Shown in pieces: positions 6,144 through 29,180 of a stretch of DNA of 53,138 bases (position 1 is its first letter; each line of letters begins with the position of its first letter). The notes below the pieces were generated by a model. That model had not been told where the DNA came from and did no database searches. It saw only the letters and a program-made list of their open reading frames with translations. The translations under genes and the position numbers were made by a program. The DNA is from Nitrospirales bacterium (GTDB lineage: Bacteria; Nitrospirota; Nitrospiria; Nitrospirales; UBA8639). The stretch covers positions 1 to 53,138 of the forward strand of contig JAJDBR010000162.1 of NCBI GenBank assembly GCA_029261275.1, written 5' to 3'.

Positions 6144-6617
6144 GTGCGGTCCCGATTGCGTATTTTTTTTATTCTTCTTTTGTGCATGCTTTCCGTTGGT
6201 CTTTTTTCTTCGGATATCTTGGCCGGGCCAACTTTTTTAAACCGACTCACCTACCCCCTACCACTTGGCTTAACCGAAATTGGTCATTTCCATGAGAATG
6301 ATTTAAAGACCTTTGAAATCTGGACGCAATGGAATAATTCCTCAAATGAGAAAATTGTCGTGCAAATGACTTTTACGTTTTTTGATAAAGACTCCGCGAA
6401 CTCCCAATTAGGAGAAGATGGGAAGGATGATTTTCTTATGTCTGTGACCGAGACAGTCACGATTCCGGAACAGGCGAGTAATTGGGGGAAATACTTTCAA
6501 CTAACGGCCATTGGGCACAAGCTAAATCAAGGGTTTGATCATTCCGCGGAAGGCGCGGGGTTGGAGCTCTATCTCGATGCCCAAATCAATTCAGTGCAAC
6601 ATCTCTATTCAGAGTAG
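6144..6617 (+). CDS. Small secreted protein, member 1 of a local three-copy family
   Basis: The product has 157 residues with a strong N-terminal signal peptide (MRSRLRIFFILLLCMLSVGL, cleavage near ILAGP). The mature part is about 125 residues with alternating polar/hydrophobic strands, for example FEIWTQWNNSSNEKIVVQMT and ETVTIPEQASNWGKYFQLTA, which suggests a beta-sandwich. I do not recognise a named family. It is about 75-80 % identical by eye to the protein at 8981 and to the broken copy at 8599. The neighbour on the opposite strand is a secreted spondin-domain protein, so this locus makes several exported proteins. Function is unknown; the start is set by homology with the 8981 copy. Confidence 0.75.
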   Translation: MRSRLRIFFILLLCMLSVGLFSSDILAGPTFLNRLTYPLPLGLTEIGHFHENDLKTFEIWTQWNNSSNEKIVVQMTFTFFDKDSANSQLGEDGKDDFLMSVTETVTIPEQASNWGKYFQLTAIGHKLNQGFDHSAEGAGLELYLDAQINSVQHLYSE

Positions 6618-6811
6618 CTTTTTTCTTCTAAAGGTTTTTGTTTCTCTTTGATAAGCGTTGAAAATCCCATTTTCAATAGTACTTACCGAAAAACATACTA
6701 GCCTGAAATCTTATTCGTTTCTCTTTCAGGGGAAGGCGGATAAGAATTCTTTCATGGAGTTGTAGTTGAGGTCCTGGTGGCCGCCGGTCTGGCTTATGAT
6801 TGATTGTTGAT

Positions 6812-8041
6812 CTAATTGGCAGCAGCAATAGTAAAGTCCCATTCGAAGCTATCACAAAAGTCGTTCTCTCCCGGGCCGACCGCCACATAGATATGATCCC
6901 CCACGGCTAAGCCCCCGACTTCGATGTCAAAGGTGCTTGTGGTGCCGTTGCCCACGGTAGCCGTATTGACCAGCGTATCATTCACATAGACGTGCACCAC
7001 ATTCCCATCGCCACAGTCGGTGTCTGCCGCGACGAGGGAGCTGGTCGTCACGGCATAGTCTCCCTCTATGGGCACTGCATAGGCGGCAATCACATAGCGG
7101 TCAGTGGCTTCGCCTTGTTCAACGGAACGCCCTGGATGTCCGCCGAGTGCTCGCAGATGGAGAATGCTACCATTGCTGTAGAACAGGCCATCCCCGGTCA
7201 AGGGGCTGTACTGGGCAGCCGTCCCAATCGGTCCCGAGGCATTCCACAGATACCCCCAATTGGGAGCGGGGTTGTCGGGCCGGAGATCAGTGCGATAATT
7301 GGCGACCGGGATAAACGGCCCTGGGTCGGGTGGATCGGTTCTCGTGAACGTAAAGGTCCCAATTGGTTGATTGGAAAAAGGCGAAAGGCCTTGCAGTCTT
7401 TTTATAGGCTCGGGTGGTGCGGTGATGTTGTTCTCAGAGAGGTAGTTTGTACCACTGTCAGTTCCAGCGTCCTAGGGGTACAACATGACGACTCTTTCAG
7501 GAATCCAATTGCCCTGTCCATCTAATAAGGACATACCTGAAACGCCGACAAACCAATCGGGGCTTGGGGCGATCATCGACGTGAGGGTGATCAGGGGATA
7601 CTCTTTGTTCATAGAGAAGGAATTAATCGATACTGATGCCGGCGAGAGAGGAATCCCTCCACCAGAAATGACGGCGTTTGCGTTTCCAGCACTTATCGCA
7701 CTCGTGACTTCATTCTGGAGATCAGTCTTTGCTCCCAATTCGGCCATATTTTTAATGCCCAAACTTGCTAATGCTCCGTTTTGCCAAAAGGTTACATTCC
7801 CATTATGACTCCCGCCGATTAAACCTGACAGATGTGGGTTTGATGGAAAAGAAGTCACCCCGTTTGGATGTGGGTGGGTGGTTTGACTCCAGGTTGAATC
7901 AAAGGTCACCCGAAAGGTTGCTGTTTCCTCCACTTGTTGGGCTTGGACGAATCTAGGATGCAGCGCTGGTAACAATGTCATCCAGATGACCACCGCAGTG
8001 ATAAGAGACATCTTTTTTGATATAGAGGTTGAGGTCGACAT
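6812..8041 (-). pseudogene. Secreted spondin-N domain protein interrupted by one amber codon
   Basis: Starting at the ATG at 8041 (GGAGGAA just upstream), the frame gives a signal peptide and then a bacterial spondin-N domain: ATFRVTFDSTWSQ, HPNGVTSFPSNPHLSGLIGG, MAELGAKTD and DWFVGVSGMSLLD. Codon 190 (7474-7472) is TAG. In the same frame the family pattern continues immediately: DAGTDSGTNYLSENNITAPP. The expected residue is Trp (PWDAGTDSGT), one base from TAG. The frame then stays open to 6812, adding a C-terminal beta domain (DTDCGDGNVVHVYVND ... FCDSFEWDFTIAAAN). Intact length would be 409 residues. It is probably inactivated by one nonsense mutation; read-through or error cannot be excluded. 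Confidence 0.8.
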
Positions 8042-17236: not shown

Positions 17237-18463
17237 ATGGCCATTTCAGAACTTGAACGACAATTAGATCTCATTCTTCGGGGAACGGTGGAAGTGCTTC
17301 AGCTCGATGAGCTGAAAGCTAAGTTGGCTGAGTCATTGAGGGAGCAACGTCCTCTCAAAATTAAGGCAGGATTTGATCCAACCGCTCCAGATCTTCATTT
17401 AGGCCATACCGTCCTCATTCAAAAGCTGAAGCATTTCCAGGATTTAGGCCATCAGGTCATTTTTCTGATCGGTGATTTTACGGGGATGATCGGAGACCCT
17501 AGCGGTGTATCCGAAACGCGCAGGGCCCTGACGAAAGAACAAGTGCTAGCAAACGCTAAGACGTATGAGCAGCAAATTTTCAAGTCGTTAAATCCTGAAA
17601 AGACACGAATTGAATTTAATAGTCGTTGGATGAGTGCGATGCCAACAGAAACCATGGTGGAAATCTGTTCGCATTATAGTGTCGCGCGGATGCTGGAACG
17701 CGATGACTTTTCTAAACGTTATCGCGATCAAAAGCCCATTAGTATTCATGAGTTTCTATATCCCCTCGTGCAAGGCTACGATTCGGTGGCATTGGAAGCG
17801 GACGTGGAGTTGGGAGGGACTGATCAAAAATTCAATCTATTAGTTGGTCGAGATTTGCAGCGTGATTATGGCCAAAAGCCTCAAGTCGTTCTGACGATGC
17901 CACTATTGGAGGGGACCGATGGTGTGAGGAAAATGAGCAAGAGTTTCGGGAACGTCATAGCGTTAGAAGATCCTCCAGCAGATATGTTTGGGAAATTAAT
18001 GTCCATCAGTGATGACCTCATGATGCGGTATTATGAATTGCTGACTGTTTCCAACTTAGAGGACGTGAAGCAGCAGCATCCTATGGAAGCCAAGAAAATA
18101 TTGGCCGAACAGCTCGTACGGCAATATCATGGAGACGCTGGGGCAGAGGAGTCCAAGGCGGATTTTCAACAACGTTTTCAAAGACGGGATTTCCCAGATG
18201 AGCCAGATGCTCATATCCGGCTCAAGCCAACAGATTTTATGGACCCAAAAGACCCCTCGTTGTCGCTCGTCGATATTTTAATAAAGACCGGGTTAGTGCC
18301 GAGCAAAGGGGAAGCCCGCCGTCTTATCTCTCAGAAAGCCATTCAAGTTGATGGAGAGAAAATGGATGACATCAATGGGGTACTGAACTTTAAGCCAGAA
18401 CAAAAATTTTCCATGAAAATTGGAAAACGCAAATTTGCGATTATTGAAATGGCGGGTCACTAA
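17237..18463 (+). CDS. tyrS: Tyrosyl-tRNA synthetase
   Basis: The 408-residue class I enzyme belongs to the longer TyrZ-like bacterial type. It has the HIGH-type motif ([10 protein letters not shown]), the tyrosine-pocket [20 protein letters not shown], the KMSKS loop and a C-terminal S4 RNA-binding domain ([20 protein letters not shown]). It charges tRNA-Tyr. The ATG follows a short A/T-rich gap after the ComEA-like gene. A tRNA-Gly gene lies 80 bases downstream. Confidence 0.96.
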
Positions 18464-18543: not shown

Positions 18544-18618
18544 GCGGGCGTAGCTCAGTGGTAGAGTTCTTGCTTCCCAAGCAAGCTGTCGGGGGTTCAA
18601 ATCCCCTCGCCCGCTCCA
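18544..18618 (+). tRNA. tRNA-Gly (CCC anticodon)
   Basis: A complete cloverleaf ends with encoded CCA (18616-18618). The acceptor arms GCGGGCG (18544-18550) and CGCCCGC pair fully. The D arm is TAGCTCAGTGGTAGAG, the anticodon arm CTTGC-TTCCCAA-GCAAG gives CCC, and the T arm is GGGGG-TTCAAAT-CCCCT. It lies just before the RiPP cluster; tRNA genes are common integration points, but I see no attachment repeat nearby. Confidence 0.97.
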
Positions 18619-18820
18619 ATTAAATCAATAACTTCCTTCTTTACCCTAGACAACCCCCGTCGATGTTTTCTGGTTTTTTCCCTTTTCCACTTCCTGGCGT
18701 AGATCTCAGTTTTGTGTTGTTTTAACCGATAGGTAAATCATAAGGGTGTTCCTTAATGAAATTGTTAGGTCCCCATTATTTTTTTTGGAAGTAGAAAAAA
18801 GATCTGGGCCTTTCAAAACA

Positions 18821-20059
18821 ATGGATCCTCATGAACAGATGATTCCTTCATCCTTACAAGAGCCAGGTAGTTTTTTTGATTGGCTTAGCAGCTTGGAAAA
18901 TCCTGGTGTTTGGGAAAGTTCGGTCTCTGAGCAATTCAATTGGTCGGCCTTGATTGATCAGGCCGGCCGGCTCAGTATTAGCTCCCTAGTGTATGATCGA
19001 GTGAAATCCAACGGAATGCTAGCCCATGTTCCCCCGGCACTTGCTAGCCAGTGGAAGTTGGAAGTTGTAAATAACCAAGCTCAAAATATGTTTCGCCTTG
19101 GTCGACTAAAGGAAATTCTTAATCTTTTCTCCCTAGAAAACATTCCGGTCATCGTATTGAAAGGTGCAGCGTTAGCAGAAATTGTGTATCCGCAATTGGG
19201 GTTGCGTCCAATGCGAGATGTTGATCTTTTGATCAAAGAAGAAGATATCTCTCGCGCTGAACAGCTGTTGCAGGCTCGTGGGTTTTTTTGTGCGGACCAG
19301 GGCCTCCCTAAAGAATGGTATGACAGTCATCATCACATTGTTCCATATGTTTCTGCTGACCAGATGTTAACTCTTGAGCTTCATCATCACCTGATTGCCT
19401 TCACGATGCCGGTGTTCATTCCTACAGAAGACCTGTGGGAGCGAGCTCTTTCTGTTCAGCTAGCTGGAGTGGCTTGCTGGATACTCTCTCCCGAAGACTT
19501 TCTGATTCATCTGGCACTTCACACGGCTTGTGATGGATTTTTGGGGAAAGTGCGAGTGCTATATGACATCGCCGAAATCATGAAACAATTCAGGAATGAA
19601 TTGGATTGGGGAGCTTTACTTATGTTGAGTGAAAAATATGGAGTCTCCAAATTTCTTTTCTATGTCTTGTGGGTGGCACAGGTGAGAATGCATGCTGGGG
19701 TGCCAGATTTCGTTCTTAATGACTTGTTTTCAAAATTCCAAGGCCTCCCCTTGGAAGATCGTTTACTCAAAAATGTATTGCAGAAAGTGCTGGTATATCA
19801 TGACGCAAGTCAGCATCCGTTTTATTTTTGGTTGCTGAGTACGTTTGGGATGGATGTTCTAAGCAATCAAGGGCGCGGGAAAAAAATTGGTAGTATCTTT
19901 AACAGGTCGACTCAACGCTACCGGGAATTTTCTCGCGAACACGCTCGACAAAATGCCGCTTCTCCATTCTGGAATCTCGCAGTGGGGTACCCGATGTATT
20001 TATTACGAAAAGCTTTTGGTCTCTCCAGCACAAAATTTCTTCCACACAAAAAGTCCTGA
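18821..20059 (+). CDS. NTP_transf_5-type nucleotidyltransferase of the RiPP cluster
   Basis: The product has about 412 residues with the family core IPVIVLKGAALAEIVYPQLG and LRPMRDVDLLI, where the DVD Asp pair is the metal-binding motif of the nucleotidyltransferase fold. EWYDSHHHIVPY, LELHHHLIAF and LIHLALHTACDG are further family features. Members of this uncharacterised family (PF14907) recur in lasso-peptide clusters that also carry an HPr-kinase-like enzyme, such as paeninodin-type clusters. A role in nucleotidyl- or phosphate-type tailoring is therefore inferred. I chose ATG 18821; GTG 18746 (25 residues longer) is possible. It is the first gene of the cluster, and 20060-20417 holds no gene I can support. 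Confidence 0.8.
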   Translation: MDPHEQMIPSSLQEPGSFFDWLSSLENPGVWESSVSEQFNWSALIDQAGRLSISSLVYDRVKSNGMLAHVPPALASQWKLEVVNNQAQNMFRLGRLKEILNLFSLENIPVIVLKGAALAEIVYPQLGLRPMRDVDLLIKEEDISRAEQLLQARGFFCADQGLPKEWYDSHHHIVPYVSADQMLTLELHHHLIAFTMPVFIPTEDLWERALSVQLAGVACWILSPEDFLIHLALHTACDGFLGKVRVLYDIAEIMKQFRNELDWGALLMLSEKYGVSKFLFYVLWVAQVRMHAGVPDFVLNDLFSKFQGLPLEDRLLKNVLQKVLVYHDASQHPFYFWLLSTFGMDVLSNQGRGKKIGSIFNRSTQRYREFSREHARQNAASPFWNLAVGYPMYLLRKAFGLSSTKFLPHKKS

Positions 20060-20417
20060 CATAAGGAAGGAGTCCGGGTTTTTGGTTTCTTGGATTATTC
20101 ATCGTAGCCAAGAGGACAAGCTGAGGTGTATCAACGGAACAGCCTATCTTCTTTTTGGATACTTTTCCCATGGGAAGAGCAGGAAAAGGGGTTTCTTAAA
20201 AGGTAGATAACTATTTCAAAGCGTTAATCAATTCTAATGATTCTTCACTCGTTTTTTATCCCCTTTTCCCCAATGGAATTCTATTCCCGTCTGAAGATTT
20301 ACCTATCCCTGAATGTGTTTTAAGGTGTGAAGTATGTTCGCCGAAGATGTTGTTTATTTCTCGAGTGTTTTTTGTTGGGGGTTTCCCCATGCGGCAGTTT
20401 AGGATTTCTGGGTCAAG

Positions 20418-20816
20418 ATGAAAAAATATTTGCGCATTCTTCGAATTAGTTTTCTGATGGTCGTGATTAGGCTGGCCTTGAAATGGATCAAATTGACGAA
20501 TCTTCTTTCCTGGTTACAACCCGCCAGGAGTTCAAAAATGAAGGACGAACACTATATTGCCAAAATGGCTAATTATACTGATGCGCTATTAGGTATCTTT
20601 CCTGCCAATCCGAAAGGTAATTGTCTACCCCGATCACTTATTCTCTTTCGGTTAGCCAGATTGCAGGGTTTTCCTGTGGTGTTTCATTGTGGTGTGCGTC
20701 GGAGTGAGGAAGGCTTAGATGGGCATGCTTGGTTGACTCTTTTTAATAAACCATTTCTCGAGCCTTCAAACCAACATGAGGAAATGGTGAAGACGGTGAC
20801 TTTCCCAACGCAATGA
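20418..20816 (+). CDS. Lasso-peptide-type B2 leader protease (transglutaminase fold)
   Basis: The 132-residue protein matches the Transglut_core3 family, known as lasso peptide B2 proteases that cut the precursor after the conserved Thr-x site. The catalytic Cys is in NCLPRSLILFRLARLQGFPV. The His is in DGHAWLTLF, and the acidic third position lies in LEPSNQHEE. The N-terminal ~45 residues contain a basic, hydrophobic helix as in B2 proteins. It works with a separate PqqD-like B1 recognition protein, found at 27597. No fused cyclase is present. This gene is strong evidence that the small peptides at 23768-25322 are processed lasso-style. Confidence 0.88.
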   Translation: MKKYLRILRISFLMVVIRLALKWIKLTNLLSWLQPARSSKMKDEHYIAKMANYTDALLGIFPANPKGNCLPRSLILFRLARLQGFPVVFHCGVRRSEEGLDGHAWLTLFNKPFLEPSNQHEEMVKTVTFPTQ

Positions 20817-20907
20817 AGCCAGGAGAACGTAATTTGTACTTTCTGACACTTTTAAAAAATTCAGTATTTCTAATATCTTTGGTTGGTGTAATTTTCAATT
20901 CCCTTTG

Positions 20908-22719
20908 ATGCTTGCCTCTATGAAAAATCGAATTCTGCCCTTATATGGCAATTTGTGCCTAGCACTCTCGTTTGTGTGGAAAAGCGGGCACAAATGGACG
21001 CTTGCTAGTATTGGGTTGCTTGTTATTCAAGGACTTCTCCCCTTAGCCACGTTGTATTTAATGAAATTATTAGTTGATCATGTGGCGGATGCCCTAACGC
21101 AACCAGATCCTCAATTTCAATTAAATGAAGTGGCTTTTATTATGATGGGGATGGGGGGTGTGGCCTTATTAAGCAGTGTGATTTCCATCCTGGCAAACTG
21201 GGTATCCCGCGGACATTCCCTACTAGTTGTTGACCATATGCAACATATTTTGCATACCAAATCGCTGGAAGTTGATTTGGAATATTATGAAAATTCACAG
21301 TATTACGATCGTTTACATCGAGCACAACAAGAAGCTGCCTCTCGTCCCATTGCCATTTTACATTCACTCATTCAGGTGGGCCAAAATGGGATTTCCCTTG
21401 TGGCGATGGGAGGGTTGTTGATTGTTTTTCATTGGGCGGTCGTGCCGATTCTCATGTTGGGAGCCCTTCCTGAATTCTTGGTTCGTCTTCGGTATGCCAA
21501 CAAGATATATGATTGGGAACGGAGCCGAACCGGGGAGGAACGCAAAGCTTGGTATTTAAATTGGATATTGACTCGGGATACTCATGCCAAAGAAATTCGA
21601 TTATTTCAGTTAGGCTCCTATTTTAAAGATATGTATCAAGAGATACGGGCGTTGTTGCGTTTTGAAGAGCTTAGTTTGGAAAAGAAACGAGCCTTCGCGA
21701 CTTTAGGTGCCCAAGTGGTGGCCACCATTGGAATTTTTGGTGTGTACTTTTTTCTGGCCCATCGTACCTTGCAGGGTTTTCTGACCTTGGGCGATTTAGT
21801 TATGTATTTTCAAGCCATTCAACGAGGAGCAAGTTTCCTGCAGCAATTTAGTGGGAGTCTTTCAGGATTATATGAACATAATTTATTTCTCAATAATCTC
21901 GATGAATTTTTGAAAGTGAAATCTCGGATAGAAGAGCCGATCCTCCCCATAGCTGTTCCGGTCAGTTCTTCCAGAGGATTGGAATTTGATGGCGTGACGT
22001 TTACCTATCCTGGAGATACTCAAAAGAGGCTGTCTAACTTCTCCTTCTCCGTGAAACCTGGAGAACATATTGCCTTTGTCGGAGCAAATGGGGCTGGAAA
22101 AACGACACTCGTAAAGGTGTTATGTCGTTTGTATGACCCGGATGAAGGGCAGATTCGATTTGATAATCACAATATTCGTGACTTTTCTGTGGAGGGATGG
22201 AGAAGTGAAATCAGCGTGATCTTCCAAGACTTTGCGCGCTATTTTCTGAGCGTGCGAGAAAATATTGCGTTAACTAAACAGGGTGCTCCTGATTTGAGTC
22301 GAATCAAGACCGCTGCAACCCAGGCTGGGGCCCATGAATTTATTGAAAGTTTACCTTTTGGTTATGACACCATTTTGGGGAAATGGTTTGAAGGGGGGCA
22401 AGAACTGAGTGTTGGTGAATGGCAAAAAATTGCCCTGTCTCGTGCGTTTTTCCGCAACTCCCAAATTTTAGTCCTGGATGAACCCACTAGTGCCATGGAT
22501 GCCAAAGCCGAAGCCCAATTATTTGAACGGTTTCACCAATTGACGATGGGGAGGATGGCCATTTTAATCAGTCATCGATTATCAACCGTCAAAATGGTGG
22601 ACCGTATTTATGTGGTAGATCACGGAGAAATTGTGGAATCCGGGACGCACGATGAGTTAATTCTTCAAGAAGGATCTTATGCAGAGCTTTATGAAATCCA
22701 AGCCAAGAATTATCAATAA
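20908..22719 (+). CDS. ABC exporter (fused membrane and ATPase domains), likely peptide exporter
   Basis: The ~603-residue protein has six predicted membrane helices in residues 1-330, then a nucleotide-binding domain. The latter has Walker A (GANGAGKTTLVKVL), Q loop (VIFQDFARYFLSV), an unusual signature LSVGEWQKIALSRAF in place of LSGGQ, Walker B (ILVLDEPTSAMD) and the switch His (LISHRLST). Half-size exporters of this type serve as the D/export component of lasso and graspetide clusters. There is no N-terminal peptidase domain, consistent with leader cleavage by the separate B2 protease. Start is ATG 20908 or 20920; neither has a strong ribosome site. Confidence 0.9.
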   Translation: MLASMKNRILPLYGNLCLALSFVWKSGHKWTLASIGLLVIQGLLPLATLYLMKLLVDHVADALTQPDPQFQLNEVAFIMMGMGGVALLSSVISILANWVSRGHSLLVVDHMQHILHTKSLEVDLEYYENSQYYDRLHRAQQEAASRPIAILHSLIQVGQNGISLVAMGGLLIVFHWAVVPILMLGALPEFLVRLRYANKIYDWERSRTGEERKAWYLNWILTRDTHAKEIRLFQLGSYFKDMYQEIRALLRFEELSLEKKRAFATLGAQVVATIGIFGVYFFLAHRTLQGFLTLGDLVMYFQAIQRGASFLQQFSGSLSGLYEHNLFLNNLDEFLKVKSRIEEPILPIAVPVSSSRGLEFDGVTFTYPGDTQKRLSNFSFSVKPGEHIAFVGANGAGKTTLVKVLCRLYDPDEGQIRFDNHNIRDFSVEGWRSEISVIFQDFARYFLSVRENIALTKQGAPDLSRIKTAATQAGAHEFIESLPFGYDTILGKWFEGGQELSVGEWQKIALSRAFFRNSQILVLDEPTSAMDAKAEAQLFERFHQLTMGRMAILISHRLSTVKMVDRIYVVDHGEIVESGTHDELILQEGSYAELYEIQAKNYQ

Positions 22720-22913
22720 CCGGAAAAGGTTCTCTCAAAGGGTCGATGCAAATGACATTGGACCCATGTGAAAACTTTAAAAGACATTTTTCTAGCCTTT
22801 TGGGAAAGTTTTAGCGTAAAAGTTATAGGGGTATGGTCCATTTGAATTGGAAGAAACAAGTGGAGTGATGAAAAGAAAAAATTTGAAGGTTTAGTCTAGG
22901 TGATTCAAGAAAA

Positions 22914-23522
22914 ATGCCTCCTATTGAATTCTTTTCTCAATTCGGAATCTTCTTTGAACGAAACTTTGTGGAAGAATCTTTTCGAAGAACATACTGTCAT
23001 AGTTTACTCAGTAATAAGGAATTCTCAAAAGGTACGGTGGTCGGCGAAGGTGATCAGGGAATTGAAAATGAAGAATGGCGGAAAGTTCTGGGTGGGACAG
23101 TGGGCGCAAATATTCAGGATGACCTCTCTCATCGATTGACAATATTGCAATCAAGGCTTGAACAGCATTTTCGGTTGAACCTTCATTGGTTCGAACCTCC
23201 ACAGTTTTTGTTGTATCAAGCAGGAGATTTTTATCGCCATCATCAAGATGTACTCATTCGTGAAGGAGACGAACATTTCACCAAAAGACGAAGAGTGTCC
23301 CTGGTGTTGTTTTTGAATGGCCAAGGCGGCAACAAGGAGACGGATTTTGCTGGTGGGTCGCTTTCTTTCTATGGCCTTGTGAAAAGTAAATCCAAAAAAT
23401 ATTTTGGCATTCCCATTCAAATAGAGCCAGGGTTGTTGGTGGCTTTTCCTTCAGGAACTTTCCATGAAGTTCTTCCGGTGACTCAGGGTCAACGAATGAG
23501 TGTAGTTACCTTTTACTCCTAA
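22914..23522 (+). CDS. 2-oxoglutarate/Fe(II)-dependent oxygenase (prolyl-4-hydroxylase type)
   Basis: The 202-residue protein shows the double-stranded beta-helix motifs of P4H-type oxygenases: LYQAGDFYRHHQDVLI (iron ligands His and Asp), SLVLFLN, GGSLSFYGL, then the distal His in FPSGTFHEVLPVTQGQRMSV with the 2-oxoglutarate-binding Arg. Such enzymes hydroxylate peptide side chains. Lying between the exporter and the precursor genes, it is the obvious candidate for hydroxylating the core peptides, for instance Pro, Lys, Asp or Tyr. Confidence 0.85.
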   Translation: MPPIEFFSQFGIFFERNFVEESFRRTYCHSLLSNKEFSKGTVVGEGDQGIENEEWRKVLGGTVGANIQDDLSHRLTILQSRLEQHFRLNLHWFEPPQFLLYQAGDFYRHHQDVLIREGDEHFTKRRRVSLVLFLNGQGGNKETDFAGGSLSFYGLVKSKSKKYFGIPIQIEPGLLVAFPSGTFHEVLPVTQGQRMSVVTFYS

Positions 23523-23678
23523 GTCCTCTAAATTTCTTCTCCTGCAACTAAAAAAACCTGTATAACAAAATGCTAAAAAGAAGGCGTTGTAGCTGTAATA
23601 ACGTTCAACAACTTGTAGGAAAATTTATTTTAAAATATTTAAAGAAAAACCTTTTAGGAAGATCATTGAGTGACGCCA

Positions 23679-23707
23679 TTGACAATTTTAAAACTGTCTT
23701 TTAGTTT
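23679..23707 (+). promoter_or_regulatory. Promoter of precursor 1
   Basis: TTGACA (23679-23684) is followed after 17 bases by TAGTTT (23702-23707), a good sigma70-like spacing. The A/T-rich leader of ~50 bases leads to AAGGAG (23753-23758) and the ATG at 23768. A similar TTGACG/TAGTTT pair precedes the second precursor. Confidence 0.55.
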
Positions 23708-23767
23708 GTAGGGCAGCGACCATGTCCTCTTAAATTTTTATTTAAAAATTTCAAGGAGCATAAAACT

Positions 23768-23923
23768 ATGGACAATCAACAACGCAAAGAAAAGTATGCT
23801 ACGCCTCTTGTGATCAAGCATGACATACTCAAAGAAATGACCGGATTTCAGCGCTATCATAATCATAGCTATGGGGATAAAACTCCAAGTTATACTAGAT
23901 ACATACGCCGTTGGTGGAGTTAA
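23768..23923 (+). CDS. RiPP precursor peptide 1 (51 residues)
   Basis: A short gene with its own promoter, ribosome site (AAGGAG) and strong terminator. The first 26 residues share position-by-position identity with the other two precursors: Y10, A11, P13, L14, I16, K17, H18, L21, T25, G26. Y-x2-P...L...T-x matches the leader motif bound by lasso B1/PqqD-type proteins and cut by B2, with the usual Gly replaced by Asp19. The predicted 25-residue core after T25-G26 is FQRYHNHSYGDKTP followed by SYTRYIRRWWS. It is basic and aromatic, has no acidic residue at core positions 7-9 (needed for a lasso ring), and ends in Ser, the residue phosphorylated by lasso kinases of the PadeK type. Confidence 0.85.
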   Translation: MDNQQRKEKYATPLVIKHDILKEMTGFQRYHNHSYGDKTPSYTRYIRRWWS

Positions 23924-23968
23924 TACCCCTGTTGGTCATCACCAAATGGCCGTAGTTGGATACCTAAA

Positions 23969-23993
23969 GAAGGGAGTGAGTAGCACTCCCTTC
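23969..23993 (+). terminator. Intrinsic terminator after precursor 1
   Basis: GAAGGGAGTG (23969-23978) pairs perfectly with CACTCCCTTC (23984-23993) around AGTAG and is followed by TTTTTAT. The same hairpin type recurs after the other precursors. 24001-24430 shows no gene I can support. Confidence 0.9.
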
Positions 23994-24431
23994 TTTTTAT
24001 AGGCCGTCTATTGCCTTTGGAAACTGGAAGGCCTTTTTATTTTGATGGGAAGTCCTACGTTCGACCTCTCTTCGGTAACCTTCTTTTACTCTTCCCCTCT
24101 TTGTGAAAATAGCTTTTTTGGGAGAAGCTCTATTCCGGTTTTCCGGCATTAATTGTATATCCCAAGCGATGCGATAGTTACCATTAGGATAGAGCTAAGA
24201 TAGGTTGTGCCTTTCCCTAGAAAACATTGCAAGAAGTTTTCCGTGGAGTGATGGAAGAATGAGCATAGTCATTGTTAATGGGTTAGGTCTACAAAAGTTC
24301 CTGACCGAAAAAACTTCACGAAAAAGCTAGAAAAGTGTTGCAACGTTTTTCCATATCCAGCAACTTCAAGGAAATTCCTGTGCCACTATTTCACTGACCA
24401 ACTTTTTTGAGAATTTCATGATGTGAAATCA

Positions 24432-24461
24432 TTGACGAATAAAAATTGGATCTTGTAGTTT
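24432..24461 (+). promoter_or_regulatory. Promoter of precursor 2
   Basis: TTGACG (24432-24437) and TAGTTT (24456-24461) are spaced by 18 bases. The surrounding bases (ATTGAC...TAGTTTGT) match those before precursor 1, suggesting the promoter was duplicated with the gene. Confidence 0.5.
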
Positions 24462-24521
24462 GTTTGAAGTCGACAATTCTCTCTCGTAATGTTATTCACA
24501 ATCTATAAGGAGGTTGACCCT

Positions 24522-24665
24522 ATGAAAGAAGAAAAAACAAAAGAACTGTATGCTGAGCCCCTCGTCATTAAGCATGAATCTCTACGAGAAATGACGGGAA
24601 ACGGATCCCACTATAATGGGCATAAGGATTATGAGGTCCCCACAAAAATGGGAATGGAGGGCTGA
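24522..24665 (+). CDS. RiPP precursor peptide 2 (47 residues)
   Basis: The ATG at 24522 follows a near-consensus ribosome site TAAGGAGGT (24506-24514). The leader aligns without gaps to precursor 1 (Y10, A11, P13, L14, V15, I16, K17, H18, L21, E23, M24, T25, G26). The 21-residue predicted core is NGSHYNGHKDYEVPT followed by KMGMEG. It keeps a Tyr and a [TV]P.K-like segment shared with the other cores, and has Lys, Thr, Asp and Glu side chains that an ATP-grasp ligase could join. It ends in Gly rather than Ser. Confidence 0.85.
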   Translation: MKEEKTKELYAEPLVIKHESLREMTGNGSHYNGHKDYEVPTKMGMEG

Positions 24666-24720
24666 TATACAAAAAAAGTGGTTGGCCTTCATTGCCATGA
24701 TTTGGTGAATGAAATATTTG

Positions 24721-24752
24721 AAAGGGGGTGAGTCATCACCCCCTTTTTTTTT
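24721..24752 (+). terminator. Intrinsic terminator after precursor 2
   Basis: AAAGGGGGTGA (24721-24731) pairs with TCACCCCCTTT (24736-24746) over a 4-base loop, and the T run reaches 24752. The strong hairpin confirms that the precursor is a separate transcription unit. Confidence 0.92.
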
Positions 24753-25004
24753 ACGAAAAATTTCATGAGGACCTTAGAGATTATAATTATTTTGAAATGA
24801 TACTCTGCTTCGGATGTTAGTTCTCCTACTCTTTGCTATCTACATTTACTCTTATCATTGCCTTTTTGAATTTTTTTGCTTTTAAATAATCGACCAGACA
24901 ATTCCAAGAAATGCAAACGCCTTGTTTGCGTGGTGGCTTGGGAGAATGTGTCAATATATTTTGATATTTTTGTTTCATGCGGATTCTTGAAAGTTTGGGT
25001 AAAG

Positions 25005-25121
25005 TTTTTGAGAATTTGAATATGAATCAGGAAGACTGAAGTTTCTATTTATTTTCATCAAGATTGTCGGGATTAAGACGATAGGAAGGTATGAAGGGAT
25101 TGAGTTGTTACTCCCTTTTTA
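25005..25121 (+). other. Relic of a fourth precursor unit (hairpin without a gene)
   Basis: TTTTTGAGAATTT at 25005-25017 repeats the sequence upstream of precursor 2 (24414-24426). At 25094-25117 AAGGGATTGAGT-tgtt-ACTCCCTT followed by T residues aligns with the precursor terminators (AAGGGAGTGAGT...CACTCCCTT). No leader-like reading frame lies between them; only a five-codon ATG...TGA frame at 25022-25039. This looks like a precursor unit from which the gene was deleted. The rest of 24753-25193 shows no gene I can support. Confidence 0.5.
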
Positions 25122-25193
25122 TTCTTGTCTCATAATGCTCCCCATGGGAATTAATTATTGTTAACCCAATGTGACCAAAGGAGTTTAAAAGTT

Positions 25194-25322
25194 ATGGAGA
25201 ATGAAAAACAAAAAGAATCGTATGCTGAACCGCTTGCCATTAAGCATGACGCCCTCAAAAAATTGACGGGAAATTCAAAGCAATACCATGAAGTTCCCGG
25301 TAAAGATTTTGAAGATTCTTAA
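25194..25322 (+). CDS. RiPP precursor peptide 3 (42 residues)
   Basis: The ATG at 25194 follows AAAGGAG (25177-25183). The leader keeps the family positions: Y10, A11, P13, L14, I16, K17, H18, L21, T25, G26. The predicted 16-residue core NSKQYHEVPGKDFEDS is short and acidic, the opposite of the basic core of precursor 1. It has Glu at core position 7, and Lys, Ser and three further acidic residues. Like core 1 it ends in Ser. The three cores differ strongly in length and charge while the leaders are nearly fixed, the usual pattern of RiPP precursor families served by one enzyme set. Confidence 0.85.
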   Translation: MENEKQKESYAEPLAIKHDALKKLTGNSKQYHEVPGKDFEDS

Positions 25323-25394
25323 TAGGCATCAGGAAATCGAAATTTCATTTTTTTTGTCATCTCCATTATTTCGGTTTAGAGGATAGGGACATGT

Positions 25395-25423
25395 AAAGAG
25401 AGTGAACCATCGCTCCCTTTTTT
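25395..25423 (+). terminator. Terminator-like hairpin after precursor 3
   Basis: AAAGAGAGTGA (25395-25405) pairs with TCGCTCCCTTT (25410-25420) with one A-C mismatch and one G-U pair, and the T run ends at 25423. It is the weakest of the set. 25424-25712 is A/T-rich and probably holds the promoter of the ATP-grasp operon; I see no gene there. Confidence 0.7.
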
Positions 25424-25712
25424 ATGGGGTGACGTTCCTGCGCTACCCCATTATATCTTTTTTGGTTTTTAAAAGCCGCACTGAAATTTTTTAAACAATA
25501 TCTCGTTGAGGAAAAAGCGAGGTTTGTTTAAAGGCAATCTTTGTTGCTTATTTTTGAGCGCTGCATATTCTTTCCACTTCGTTTCTTTTTATTTATTTTT
25601 TTTCTTCGTTTGCACTATAAATTCTCTAGAGGAATAAAGATTTTTCTAAGTATCGTTTGATAGTGAATGACAAAAAAGATGAAGGATGAGGGCATATATG
25701 CCGATATGAAAT

Positions 25713-26636
25713 ATGATGATTATCCTTTTTGGACATTCAAACGACCCCATTATTCGAGGCGTACGTTCTGAGCTTGAGGCCCAGGGTCATGTGTTTGCGG
25801 TGGTCGACCCGAATGATGCGGTGTTTGAGAGTCAACTAACATGGGATGTAGGATCTTCCTGGAACCTCCAATTGAATCCTGGCAAAGGAAAAGCCGTTGA
25901 AATCTCTGGTTCAGTCGTGACCGCTGCTTTTTGGCGAAGCCAATTCCCCCTTTCTCCCTCTACTACTGAATTCTGGTCTTCACAGGACCTTTCCTATATG
26001 GCCAAGGAAGGGTATGCGACGTTGTTAGGCTTATTGCATGGTTCTACATGTGTCATTGTGAATGAACCTATTCCAGGAGGGCGTAGCCGATTCTTTTTTG
26101 CGGATTATACTTGGGAACGCTTATTGGAAGATCATTCCATAGGGATCCCCGAAATGTGCTTGGCTACCTCGACCACTGGTTCAACGCAATTTTGTCAGGA
26201 AGTGCTTGGAAAAATCAGAATCTTGCCACTAGGTAGTGCGGTTTCCCAAAAAGCATTCGCGAATCCGATGGGTCTGTCGGATTGGAATTATTCGAAATCC
26301 CCCCTGTGTTTACAGGCCATTGCGCCTGGAGAATGGTTTCATATGATAAATGTGGGATCGGAAGTACGAGGTGGACCTATTGCGCCGCAAATTGGATATG
26401 GGTCCTTTGAGACTGGCGTCGAACCTCAATTCTGTCCTTCGCCACTAATCACGAAATACTTAACATTGAGTAATGCCTATGATTTGGAATTTTCCGAAAG
26501 TATCTGGATGCAGGATGAATATGAGCAATGGTTTTGCCTTGATTGGAATTGTGTGCCACAACTGCATCATTGGGGGCCGGCCATGCAGCAGGAAGTGCTG
26601 CCCTTATTAGCTCATTTGCTCGCTCCTAAAGTATGA
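25713..26636 (+). CDS. ATP-grasp-like protein, probably degenerate partner
   Basis: The 307-residue protein is a diverged paralogue of the next gene. MIILFGHSNDPIIRGVRSEL corresponds to YILLIGPISDPMVAIVSEKL there. The C-terminal metal site survives in form (CLDWNCVPQL against CFEVNTSPAF). The ATP-binding positions are altered: the Lys strand VIFKSLSAE becomes IRILPLGSA, the QEYIPG hinge becomes QAIAPG, and the Arg of FRVHVVGS becomes His in FHMINVGS. The start (25713) has no strong ribosome site. It overlaps the next gene by ATGA, so the two are made together. I infer a pseudo-enzyme or a peptide-binding subunit for the ligase; a divergent active enzyme is possible. Confidence 0.7.
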   Translation: MMIILFGHSNDPIIRGVRSELEAQGHVFAVVDPNDAVFESQLTWDVGSSWNLQLNPGKGKAVEISGSVVTAAFWRSQFPLSPSTTEFWSSQDLSYMAKEGYATLLGLLHGSTCVIVNEPIPGGRSRFFFADYTWERLLEDHSIGIPEMCLATSTTGSTQFCQEVLGKIRILPLGSAVSQKAFANPMGLSDWNYSKSPLCLQAIAPGEWFHMINVGSEVRGGPIAPQIGYGSFETGVEPQFCPSPLITKYLTLSNAYDLEFSESIWMQDEYEQWFCLDWNCVPQLHHWGPAMQQEVLPLLAHLLAPKV

Positions 26637-27586
26637 AATTTGAACCGTATATTCTTTTAATCGGACCTATCTCCGATCCGATGGTCGCTATTGTAAGCGA
26701 AAAACTAACGAGACGAGATTGCACGTTGGTGGTGTTGGATTTTCAACAATCTGCTCATAAATGGCCTATTGCCATTTCCACAGGAAGGAGAGGAAGGTCA
26801 GGGATTTTTCGATTCGGAGCTCGCAAGATTCCCCTTGAGGCGATTCGTTCAACCTATGTCAGAAGAGGAGGGGCAATCGTTCAGGAGAATGATGGGGAAT
26901 ATTTACGGAGAGATCAGCCTCATCATCAAGCCCTGTTTCCGAATTTGTTAGGGTGGCTTCCTGGATTAGTTATGAATCCCTATCGGGCGGCTTGCTCTAA
27001 TGGATCTAAGCCTTATCAGCAATTGCGGATTACTCAGTTAGGATTTCGAATGCCAAAAACTCTGGTGACGACGGTACCTCAAGCTGCTCACCAGTTTTAT
27101 ATCGAATGCCAGGAAAAAGTGATTTTCAAGTCTTTAAGTGCAGAGCGATCAGTGGTGAAGCGTTTGACCGAAGAAGATCTTCCCCGGTTGGATCAACTTC
27201 AATGTTGCCCGGTTCAATTTCAAGAATATATTCCTGGAATTGATTTTCGTGTTCATGTGGTTGGTTCACGAGTTTTTGCCAGTCAGATTGAAACAAGTTC
27301 TACGGATTATCGGTACGTCGAAAAGAACCATTTTCGTAACATTCGAGCAGTAGAACTTTCTTCGGAGTTGCAGGAGAAATGTGTGGCCCTCACCAAGGGC
27401 CTAGGGTTAGTACTTGCCGGGATCGATCTGCGGCGAACCTTTGATGGGGACTATGTGTGTTTTGAGGTCAATACGAGTCCGGCCTTTATGTTTTACGAGT
27501 CCCAAACCGGGCAGCGAATTGGTGCGGCCGTTGCTGAATTATTATTTCAAGGACAGTGCGTTGAGTCTGGGTGCTATCATTCATGA
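26633..27586 (+). CDS. RimK/graspetide-type ATP-grasp ligase
   Basis: The 317-residue protein has the ATP-grasp order: a pre-ATP-grasp domain (YILLIGPISDPMVAIVSEKL, YVRRGG), SKPYQQLRITQLGFRMPKTL, the nucleotide-binding strand EKVIFKSLSAE, the hinge VQFQEYIPGIDFRVHVVGS and the Mg-binding LAGIDL...YVCFEVNTSP. These features match RimK-like ligases such as MvdD/graspetide enzymes, which activate a side-chain carboxylate as acyl phosphate and join it to Ser, Thr or Lys. In this cluster it sits where the lasso cyclase would be expected. Its stop overlaps the ribosome site of the PqqD-like gene. Confidence 0.85.
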   Translation: MKFEPYILLIGPISDPMVAIVSEKLTRRDCTLVVLDFQQSAHKWPIAISTGRRGRSGIFRFGARKIPLEAIRSTYVRRGGAIVQENDGEYLRRDQPHHQALFPNLLGWLPGLVMNPYRAACSNGSKPYQQLRITQLGFRMPKTLVTTVPQAAHQFYIECQEKVIFKSLSAERSVVKRLTEEDLPRLDQLQCCPVQFQEYIPGIDFRVHVVGSRVFASQIETSSTDYRYVEKNHFRNIRAVELSSELQEKCVALTKGLGLVLAGIDLRRTFDGDYVCFEVNTSPAFMFYESQTGQRIGAAVAELLFQGQCVESGCYHS

Positions 27587-27596
27587 GGAGGAAGGG

Positions 27597-28076
27597 ATGA
27601 GCGATACTAATCAATCTGCAAAAAAAACACTATTTATTGGGTCTGAGTTGCGACCAGCATTAGGAAGAACTGAAACTGCGGATACTCCGCACGTGGCTTC
27701 TTCAGCAACGAATCAGGATATCCAAACAGCGGCAATAAAAGCCTTAGAAATGGATGGGACATTATCTTGTGCTTCTCATGAGCCTAATGATTGGGAAGCC
27801 CAAAAACACGATGTACTTCACTGTGCGGAAGATGTTCATTGCACGATTTTAGAGGGCGAGGCCGTCCTATTGAACTTGGATAATGGGCATTATTATTCCC
27901 TCAATAAAGTCGGGACAGCCATTTGGGAATGTTGTGATGGAAGCCGTACTTTACAAGATGTCCTTATGCACATTTGTGAACGATTTGAAGTCATGGAAGA
28001 CCAAGCTCGTAAAGATTTGCTAATCATTTCTTCTCAATTAATTAAAGAAAGCCTTCTTCTGCAGTCAAAAGCTTGA
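27597..28076 (+). CDS. PqqD/lasso B1-like leader-binding protein with N-terminal extension
   Basis: I chose the ATG at 27597, preceded by GAGGAGGAA, giving 159 residues. Residues ~78-155 are PqqD-like: DVHCTILEGEAVLLNLDNGH, YYSLNKVGTAIWECCDGSRT, LQDVLMHICERFEV. That is the RiPP recognition element that binds the Y-x2-P leader in lasso systems and hands it to the B2 protease. The first ~75 residues are a low-complexity Ser/Thr/Ala/Glu-rich extension not usual for B1. It follows the ATP-grasp gene directly and precedes the kinase by 63 bases, so it may deliver the precursors to all three enzymes. Confidence 0.88.
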   Translation: MSDTNQSAKKTLFIGSELRPALGRTETADTPHVASSATNQDIQTAAIKALEMDGTLSCASHEPNDWEAQKHDVLHCAEDVHCTILEGEAVLLNLDNGHYYSLNKVGTAIWECCDGSRTLQDVLMHICERFEVMEDQARKDLLIISSQLIKESLLLQSKA

Positions 28077-28139
28077 GGCAAAGGATCCTCTGAAATTACT
28101 ACATATATGCCTGATAAATAACATTTGATTGGAGTTTCC

Positions 28140-29180
28140 ATGCAATGCTTTGAAGTGTCGATCCATAATAATAATATAAAAGTGTCCTCTTCTTCTCCGC
28201 TCCTGTTTGAACCGATTCAAAAATTCTTGCGATATTTCACTCAAAATGAACGGGAGGGGAATCAGGTTCTTGATTTCACGTTTTATGCAGTTTCCAGACG
28301 AGAGCAAATCCCAAAGGTTCTGTCATCTCAGGCTAAAGAAGTCATTTCTCGCTCAGGCACCACCAGAGGGGACGCAAAGCGTTCGACGTGGAACTATACC
28401 CTTTATATGGAACCCCAAAAAACTATCGCTGATTACCATGACCAAGGGTTGATTGTAATAGATTTTGCCTCCGAAACCGCTCAAATCTATGTCGTAGAAC
28501 CAGAAGCGATGCATGAAGATGTTCGAGTGAGTTATTTTCATTATGCGTTGATTGAGCTTCTGAAGCGTCGCGGGTTCTACACTCTTCATGCTACGGCATT
28601 AGAAAAAAATGGACTGGGTATTTTGATTCCTGGATGTAGCGGAAGAGGCAAGACGACGGCCTTTGTCTCTTTACTTCGCTCAGGGTATCGCTGTCTTTCT
28701 GATGATCATCCTCTTCTTCATGAAATCCATGGAGAGCTAGAGTTGTTAGCTTTTGAAGAGAAGGTGGATATTTTGGAAAGTTCTCTCAAATTTTTCCCGG
28801 AATTTCACAATGCGGGAAAAGATATTTTGCCCGATGGTCTTTGGAAGCGATTTTTCTACATCGAAGACTTTTACAAGGACGGCTTTGCGATGTCCTGTCA
28901 ACCACGAATGCTGGTATTTCCACAGGTCGTTGATTCGCCTAAAAGTTGGGTGGAGCCTTTAGGGAAATCAAGGGCGTTGGAAGAATTGTTGCCAGAAACT
29001 ATGGATGTCTTTGATAAAACCATTGCCAAACTGGAATTTTCATTTTTATCTCGCCTGGTCAATCAATTGGACTGCTATCAATTATACTTTGGTCATGATG
29101 TGTTGGAATTACCGAACTTAATCACTCCTCTTTTAGAAAAGAGTTCCGTCAACTGCGAGTCAAAGGTGCTCTCCACGTAG
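28140..29180 (+). CDS. HPr-kinase-like enzyme of the RiPP cluster
   Basis: The 346-residue protein carries a P-loop GILIPGCSGRGKTTAFVSLL and the following CLSDDHPLL Asp pair of HPr kinase/phosphorylase relatives. The HPr-kinase N-terminal domain is replaced by a different one (residues 1-150). Homologues in paeninodin-type lasso clusters phosphorylate the C-terminal Ser of the precursor. Precursors 1 and 3 end in Ser, which fits. ATG 28140 has GGAG five bases upstream; the TTG at 28125 is less likely. This is the last gene of the cluster and converges on rsmJ. Confidence 0.82.
   Translation: MQCFEVSIHNNNIKVSSSSPLLFEPIQKFLRYFTQNEREGNQVLDFTFYAVSRREQIPKVLSSQAKEVISRSGTTRGDAKRSTWNYTLYMEPQKTIADYHDQGLIVIDFASETAQIYVVEPEAMHEDVRVSYFHYALIELLKRRGFYTLHATALEKNGLGILIPGCSGRGKTTAFVSLLRSGYRCLSDDHPLLHEIHGELELLAFEEKVDILESSLKFFPEFHNAGKDILPDGLWKRFFYIEDFYKDGFAMSCQPRMLVFPQVVDSPKSWVEPLGKSRALEELLPETMDVFDKTIAKLEFSFLSRLVNQLDCYQLYFGHDVLELPNLITPLLEKSSVNCESKVLST

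Follow-up and report, generated by a model that had tools for sequence, protein, structure and literature searches.

Linear polyphosphorylated peptides (LPPs) are made by clusters that encode a recognition element (RRE) for ribosomally synthesized and post-translationally modified peptides (RiPPs), an HprK kinase, a nucleoside triphosphate (NTP) transferase and an MsbA-like exporter, and no cyclase (Popov et al., 2026, PMC13381572). Their leaders follow the consensus YxxPxVLxHQxIxFETxxS, the kinase LppK phosphorylates Ser3, and the class is described as restricted to Bacillota (PMC13381572). Among the graspetides, corallotide (group 15) carries a KxxxD isopeptide made by CorB, a TIGR04187 synthetase, with the cross-linked Lys hydroxylated by CorC, a PF13640 oxygenase (Carter et al., 2026, PMC13097080). 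A lasso-graspetide hybrid was built by engineering in 2026 (PMC13003496). In the full-text literature we found no paper joining ATP-grasp, HprK and PqqD, and no natural lasso-graspetide hybrid. Here we describe a gene cluster from a Nitrospirales bacterium (assembly GCA_029261275.1, contig JAJDBR010000162.1; the whole stretch of 53,138 nt is called the window) in which an LPP- and lasso-like gene set stands beside a graspetide-type ligase. A first-pass annotation, made from the sequence alone, had taken it for a lasso-type cluster of an undescribed class with an ATP-grasp pair in place of the cyclase. The observation was confirmed and the interpretation is partly supported: no paper on the combination was found, while the cyclase-free logic itself has been published as LPP (PMC13381572).

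We consider it rather probable that the cluster encodes a RiPP pathway in which a graspetide-type ligase has been grafted onto an LPP/lasso-type adaptor-kinase pathway. Every gene that the annotation had listed is present at 18.8–29.2 kb, that is, NTP_transf_5, B2, the exporter, the 2-oxoglutarate (2OG) oxygenase, three precursors, two ATP-grasp-fold genes, PqqD/B1 and the HprK-like kinase, all on one strand:

18821..20059, + strand: NTP_transf_5 nucleotidyltransferase-like protein (N/LppN-like), PF14907, E 5e-58
20418..20816, + strand: B2 leader peptidase (transglutaminase-like Cys protease), lasso_biosyn_B2 NF033537, 49.6 bits, cut-off 33
20905..22719, + strand: ABC exporter, MsbA-like, PF00005 6e-32, TIGR02203 1e-82 (below cut-off)
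22914..23522, + strand: 2OG-Fe(II) oxygenase, PF13640 2e-13
23768..23923, + strand: precursor 1, leader MDNQQRKEKYATPLVIKHDILKEMT, core GFQRYHNHSYGDKTPSYTRYIRRWWS, no K-x2/3-D/E
24522..24665, + strand: precursor 2, core GNGSHYNGHKDYEVPTKMGMEG, with KDYE and KMGME
25194..25322, + strand: precursor 3, core GNSKQYHEVPGKDFEDS, with KQYHE and KDFE
25713..26636, + strand: GraspA, ATP-grasp-fold protein without most ATP/Mg residues, from profile-profile comparison and predicted fold
26633..27586, + strand: GraspB, graspetide-type ATP-grasp ligase, TIGR04187 1e-38 (below its cut-off of 350 bits)
27597..28076, + strand: B1/RRE (PqqD) adaptor, PF05402 9e-17
28125..29180, + strand: HprK-like kinase, P-loop GCSGRGKTT, HprK_rel_A 1e-14 in the C-terminal domain (below cut-off)

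The closest solved relatives of GraspB are the graspetide synthetases PsnB (3e-31), AMdnB, CdnC and MdnC. All 12 residues checked, including Lys166, Glu198, Arg206, Asp265, Glu278 and Asn280, do not vary among the 19 homologues, and GraspB thus has the first mark of a graspetide cluster, an ATP-grasp ligase of the synthetase family with an intact active site. The GraspA gene has no Pfam or NCBIfam match. Profile-profile alignment with hhalign nevertheless identifies its product as a full-length homologue of GraspB at 99.8% probability, and the predicted fold matches MdnC, PruB and PsnB (mean predicted local distance difference test score 73, from an alignment of five rows). GraspA lacks the counterparts of Asp265 and Arg267 in 19/19 cases and those of Glu198 and Arg206 in 18/19 each. 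Judged by these residues, GraspB is the one enzyme with all catalytic residues and GraspA is a degenerate, diverged ATP-grasp homologue, the predicted partner of GraspB. Of the annotated “ATP-grasp pair” two ATP-grasp-fold genes therefore stand, and two ligases do not, as GraspA is without most ATP/Mg residues in every member. A microviridin-like pair in which both genes are active is ruled out by the same losses. The two genes overlap by 4 bp (ATGA) in the window and, by open reading frame (ORF) coordinates, also in an uncultured Nitrospirae (L012), a Nitrospirales (L013), Nostoc sp. UCD121 (L014) and a genome labelled Comamonas sp. KCTC 72670 (L015); this overlap suggests that their translation is coupled. 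A search of the plasmid collection gave remote ATP-grasp matches and nothing closer.

The three short precursor genes have also held up. They are, on sequence grounds, genuine and not chance ORFs, because they share the leader MxxxxxKExYAxPLxIKHxxLxxxTG and because, in a relative, precursors at the equivalent gene position match them (E 3e-7, 7e-11 and 6e-8 for precursors 1–3). A ribosome-binding site, AAGGAGG, lies directly upstream of precursor 2. The leader recurs in five orphan precursors, which are spread over three further contigs of the genome (G000 C102, C6 and C32):

L168, 3642-3806, 4647-4835 and 1531-1662: three orphan precursors
L169, 97-297: one orphan precursor
L170, 1197-1337: one orphan precursor

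Three of the orphan cores read GYHTYQPMxPxCxxC, a new core type, one contains KAAEK and one belongs to a paralogue of precursor 1 (GFQRYHNHSYGDK). No recognized biosynthetic genes lie beside them in the stretches read, and the pathway probably acts on precursors in trans.

The cassette loci and the window together gave a set of 56 precursors; the sequences are related and not independent, and the type I and type II classes, as well as eight representative cores, were chosen by us. Type I cores start with T|AGQSG or similar and have Ser at position 3 or 4 in 21/21, which was also a criterion for recognizing them. Two Cys are present in 14/21 of these cores, and several have RRWWNND-like tails (L043-L047, L050, L094, L096, L097); precursor 1 of the window ends in YIRRWWS. 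Type II cores show patterns such as GxKYREKxSDK. The motif K-x2/3-[D/E] is present in 31/33 type II cores and 5/21 type I cores from clusters with the ligase, and in none of the 19 cores from clusters without GraspB. Pairs of Lys with D/E at i,i+3 number 15 in the eight hand-picked representative cores against 3.6 in shuffles (p ∼5e-5), and a single Nostoc core holds nine i,i+4 pairs against 3.3 expected (p 2e-4). Nucleophile/acid pairs at recurring spacing, the second mark of a graspetide, are found in precursors 2 and 3 and are lacking in precursor 1. The same division applies to Ser3/4, which is present in precursors 2 and 3 and absent from precursor 1. A C-terminal Ser was considered as a paeninodin-like kinase site and rejected: it is the last residue of precursors 1 and 3 but is unconserved in relatives.

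The GraspA-GraspB-B1-HprK cassette with YxxP precursors was found in 19 genomes: that of the window, L012, L013, Nostoc L014 and 15 Nitrospiraceae. Lasso-style leader recognition (YxxP and a discrete B1) and B2 are indeed co-located with a graspetide-type ligase, as had been claimed, and the arrangement is kept in these genomes. In Nostoc, GraspB and B1 are naturally fused in one protein. L015 has GraspA, GraspB, two PqqD proteins, a precursor-like ORF (YVPPALRKHDGL) and a 2OG oxygenase (PF13640); neither HprK nor B2 was detected there. The B1 protein of the window matches lasso-type RREs (TbiB1 at 2.5e-10, and others) and has an additional N-terminal region of ∼70 residues bearing FIGSELRP. 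Such an N-terminal FIxxxLRP on the RRE is present at 20/20 GraspA-GraspB-B1 loci (19 scanned, L015 among them, plus the window) and in 0/35 other B1 proteins. We propose that this tail docks B1 onto GraspA-GraspB. The joining of the RRE to GraspB in Nostoc, together with the YxxP leader, suggests that the precursor may reach the ligase via the RRE.

In 18 genomes of Nostocaceae and at several loci of Nitrospiraceae, there are ATP-grasp pairs without B1 and HprK that apparently belong to another system. GraspA/GraspB-like pairs without RRE or kinase are seen at L057 (11197-16285), L075-L092 and L099-L108; next to the L057 pair are proteins of DUF6519 and Tail_P2_I, suggestive of a tie to a phage-tail-like particle.

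No lasso cyclase was found in the cluster and none was detectable in the genome, a 90%-complete draft. Across the whole genome, Asn_synthase (PF00733) matches comprise one full-length AsnB and QueC and nothing else. The AsnB, which starts MCGICG, is on another contig and adjoins a sugar-nucleotide gene. No Asn_synthase match was listed near the cassette in this genome or the 18 others; the closest one sharing a contig with a cassette is ∼90 kb off, short and of a QueC-like kind. The annotated absence of a cyclase is thus upheld, strongly though not absolutely, because the genome is only 90% complete. The cores, taken with Thr at -2, start with F, N and N, and an acid (E) at positions 7–9 is found in precursor 3 only, so they do not have the small first residue and D/E at 7–9 of a lasso core. 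The remaining lasso features are in place, namely the discrete B1 RRE, the YxxP leader (YAxPL) and the B2 Cys protease.

The wider distribution of this machinery bears on what the ligase genes were added to. An HprK-like kinase is present in 71/172 Nitrospiraceae genomes and the GraspB cassette in 15/175. B1, a YxxP precursor and HprK were found together in 16/20 inspected neighborhoods lacking the GraspB cassette, and NTP_transf_5 and B2 usually accompany them. None of those 16 neighborhoods, which were not searched for a cyclase, showed an ATP-grasp gene. These ATP-grasp-less clusters (L139, L140, L142, L143, L147-L158; cores such as TAIQLSR and the Gly-rich TAxRSG) apparently constitute an LPP-like family that employs B2 and lies outside Bacillota. 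Many Nitrospira clusters have two parts, the first running B1-type I precursor-HprK-NTP-B2-ABC and the second GraspA-GraspB-B1-type II precursor, often with a second HprK. Since B1/B2/HprK/NTP machinery is widespread without ATP-grasp genes and the cyclase-free LPP pathway is published (PMC13381572), GraspA-GraspB look like a module added to a cyclase-free LPP-like system and not, as first annotated, genes standing in place of a lasso cyclase. A lasso cluster that has lost its cyclase was likewise rejected, kinase/B1/B2 clusters being common in Nitrospiraceae without ATP-grasp genes.

The genes, the common YxxP...H...T leader, the lack of a nearby cyclase, the intact ligase with its degenerate partner, and the co-variation of ligase, core motif and B1 tail can be read from the sequences; all of the chemistry proposed for the grafted pathway, ring formation with loss of 18 Da included, is our inference. 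The B1 RRE would bind the YxxP leader, and its FIxxxLRP tail would dock the precursor on GraspA-GraspB. GraspB would then couple Lys with an Asp/Glu at the third or fourth position after it (K-x-x-D/E, K-x-x-x-D/E), partnered by GraspA in a non-catalytic role; the peptide would thereby acquire one or more short isopeptide staples, each at -18 Da. Of the steps, this is the most secure. The oxygenase would hydroxylate the peptide, possibly at the cross-linked Lys. HprK would phosphorylate a hydroxyl, that of Ser3/4 if the core has one, and the phosphate would be elaborated by the NTP_transf_5 protein; for precursors without Ser3/4 the case for this step is weak. Finally, B2 would cut after the conserved Thr or the next residue, and the ABC protein would export the product. 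We suggest, more tentatively, that the loci form an undescribed RiPP family defined by an FIxxxLRP-tailed RRE, YxxP precursors both clustered and dispersed through the genome, a two-subunit synthetase of active GraspB and pseudo-ATP-grasp GraspA, and phosphorylated, Lys-Asp/Glu-stapled peptides.

Several observations weigh against this pathway. No product has been seen. The enrichment of K-x2/3-[D/E] has Fisher values of 3e-12 and 1e-7, which come from related sequences and classes that we set ourselves, and the motif is not universal: precursor 1 and 4/5 orphan precursors of this genome are without it, as is the L015 precursor. The L013 core has no Ser or Thr at all despite the presence of a kinase, and some type II cores offer it no Ser3/4. 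In L013, B2 is on a different contig and not beside the exporter. In a model of the Nostoc GraspB-B1 fusion the FIxxxLRP linker has very low confidence and no confident docking is seen.

Among other explanations, the one that survives best, though we think it unlikely, is that the products are LPP-like linear phosphopeptides to which the ATP-grasp proteins add amino acids by RimK-like ligation without cross-links, the kinase making the chief modification. The RRE, kinase, NTP transferase and exporter follow LPP logic (PMC13381572), versions without ATP-grasp are common, and GraspB matches RimK-type amino-acid ligases, though more weakly; its best solved relatives, however, are macrocyclases, and the K-x2/3-D/E pattern accompanies the ligase. 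We regard as quite unlikely that this is an ordinary graspetide cluster, possibly of group 33 or 39 in the 2026 RODEO survey, with the lasso-like genes as tailoring functions. GraspB is TIGR04187-like, and the survey reports transglutaminase-fold proteins in both groups, which might include our family; its section on co-occurrence names neither PqqD/B1 nor HprK nor NTP_transf_5 for them (Carter et al., PMC13097080), and the leader here is of the YxxP/RRE type. It is very improbable that GraspA and GraspB form a binding or delivery complex and leave the making of the product, for example a metal-binding peptide, to the oxygenase and kinase: oxygenases of varied families recur nearby and several cores are rich in Cys or His (with CxxC among the orphan precursors), but the invariant, intact GraspB active site favors ligation chemistry. 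A true lasso pathway with a cyclase supplied in trans can hardly be credited, even though paeninodin- and pseudomycoidin-type clusters typically have B1, B2, HprK and NTP genes (PMC8498205) and the genome is 90% complete, given that the searches of this and 18 other genomes revealed nothing near the cassette, the only AsnB sits in a sugar-nucleotide context and the cores are not of the usual lasso form.

In HprK, the P-loop residues G170, S172, G173, G175, K176, T177 and T178 and the stretch S192-D193-D194 are invariant in 19/19, and a solved-structure search gave weak matches to HPr kinases and nothing else. B2 has 12 positions invariant across 17 homologues, among them C69, H103 and W105; the solved-structure search gave no match for it. 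MsbA is the best named relative of the exporter, scoring under the MsbA cut-off, and the L012 counterpart is 84% identical. NTP_transf_5 homologues are present in the Nostoc cluster and 14 Nitrospiraceae loci; the gene starts with an in-frame ATG at 18821, and an in-frame GTG at 18746 is a possible alternative. Oxygenases of differing families (PF13640 in the window and L015; two FA_hydroxylase, or fatty-acid-hydroxylase-family, proteins among type II precursors at L044 4759-5793 and 6472-7551) suggest that the pathway is served by more than one kind. In Nostoc L014, two adjacent paralogous proteins are encoded at 6277-7748, one of which weakly matches the WelO5 halogenase family, below cut-off.

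Terminator-like hairpins with T-runs lie near the precursors:

23970-24000: hairpin of the type GGGAGTGA...TCACTCCC
24720-24747, + strand: hairpin of this type, 3′ of precursor 2
25092-25120: hairpin of this type
25395-25425: hairpin of this type, 3′ of precursor 3 (25400-25415)

These are perhaps terminators that fix the precursor-to-enzyme dosage; overall, a promoter/terminator scan of the region found no more sites than expected from shuffled sequence. The cassette locus looks vertically kept in the family of the window, L012 and L013, because tyrS lies immediately upstream in all three (17237-18463, 1733-2965 and 6469-7695, respectively). A tRNA-Gly (CCC) gene at 18544-18618 of the window, between tyrS and the cluster, is a possible integration site.

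If the grafted pathway is real, graspetide-type ligases can work through an RRE adaptor in place of their own leader pocket, and two RiPP classes so far joined by engineering (PMC13003496) have a natural link. The clusters would be a natural test of adding a ligase module to an existing adaptor-kinase pathway, with a candidate partner subunit in the form of a degenerate ATP-grasp protein and with isopeptide staples three or four residues apart, in Nitrospirota, a phylum whose peptides have received little study. The same clusters hold precursors that have the ligase motif next to others that lack it, which makes the idea directly testable.

Microviridin and plesiocin synthetases (MdnB, MdnC, PsnB) bind the leader directly, as known from their structures. 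GraspB has their fold and catalytic residues, but the window has a YxxP leader with a separate RRE (fused in Nostoc), and its second ATP-grasp protein is degenerate. Rosaritide MirB/MirC also combines a graspetide synthetase with a partner protein that it needs; MirC is a divergent PpiC-type protein, whereas GraspA is a degenerate ATP-grasp homologue (PMC13097080). Like corallotide, the window has a TIGR04187-like synthetase and a PF13640 oxygenase, and its motifs resemble the Lys-Asp i,i+4 pair; corallotide has a large repetitive precursor and a beta-lactamase-family protein instead, and no RRE/B1, B2, HprK or degenerate ATP-grasp partner is reported for it (PMC13097080). With the paeninodin and pseudomycoidin lasso peptides (PMC8498205) the window shares B1, B2, an HprK-like kinase, an NTP transferase, an exporter, a putatively RRE-bound leader and a conserved Thr near the leader end; it differs in having no lasso cyclase, in cores that are not lasso-like and in its ATP-grasp genes. 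As in LPP, there is a discrete RRE, an HprK-like kinase, an NTP transferase and an MsbA-like exporter (kinase and MsbA matches below cut-offs) and no cyclase, and all three leaders, compared by eye, keep the Y..P....H......T spacing of the LPP consensus. Unlike LPP, the window has a B2 Cys protease and no SpI-like peptidase among the cluster genes, belongs to another phylum, and adds GraspA-GraspB and an oxygenase, with ligase-linked cores that carry K-x2/3-D/E.

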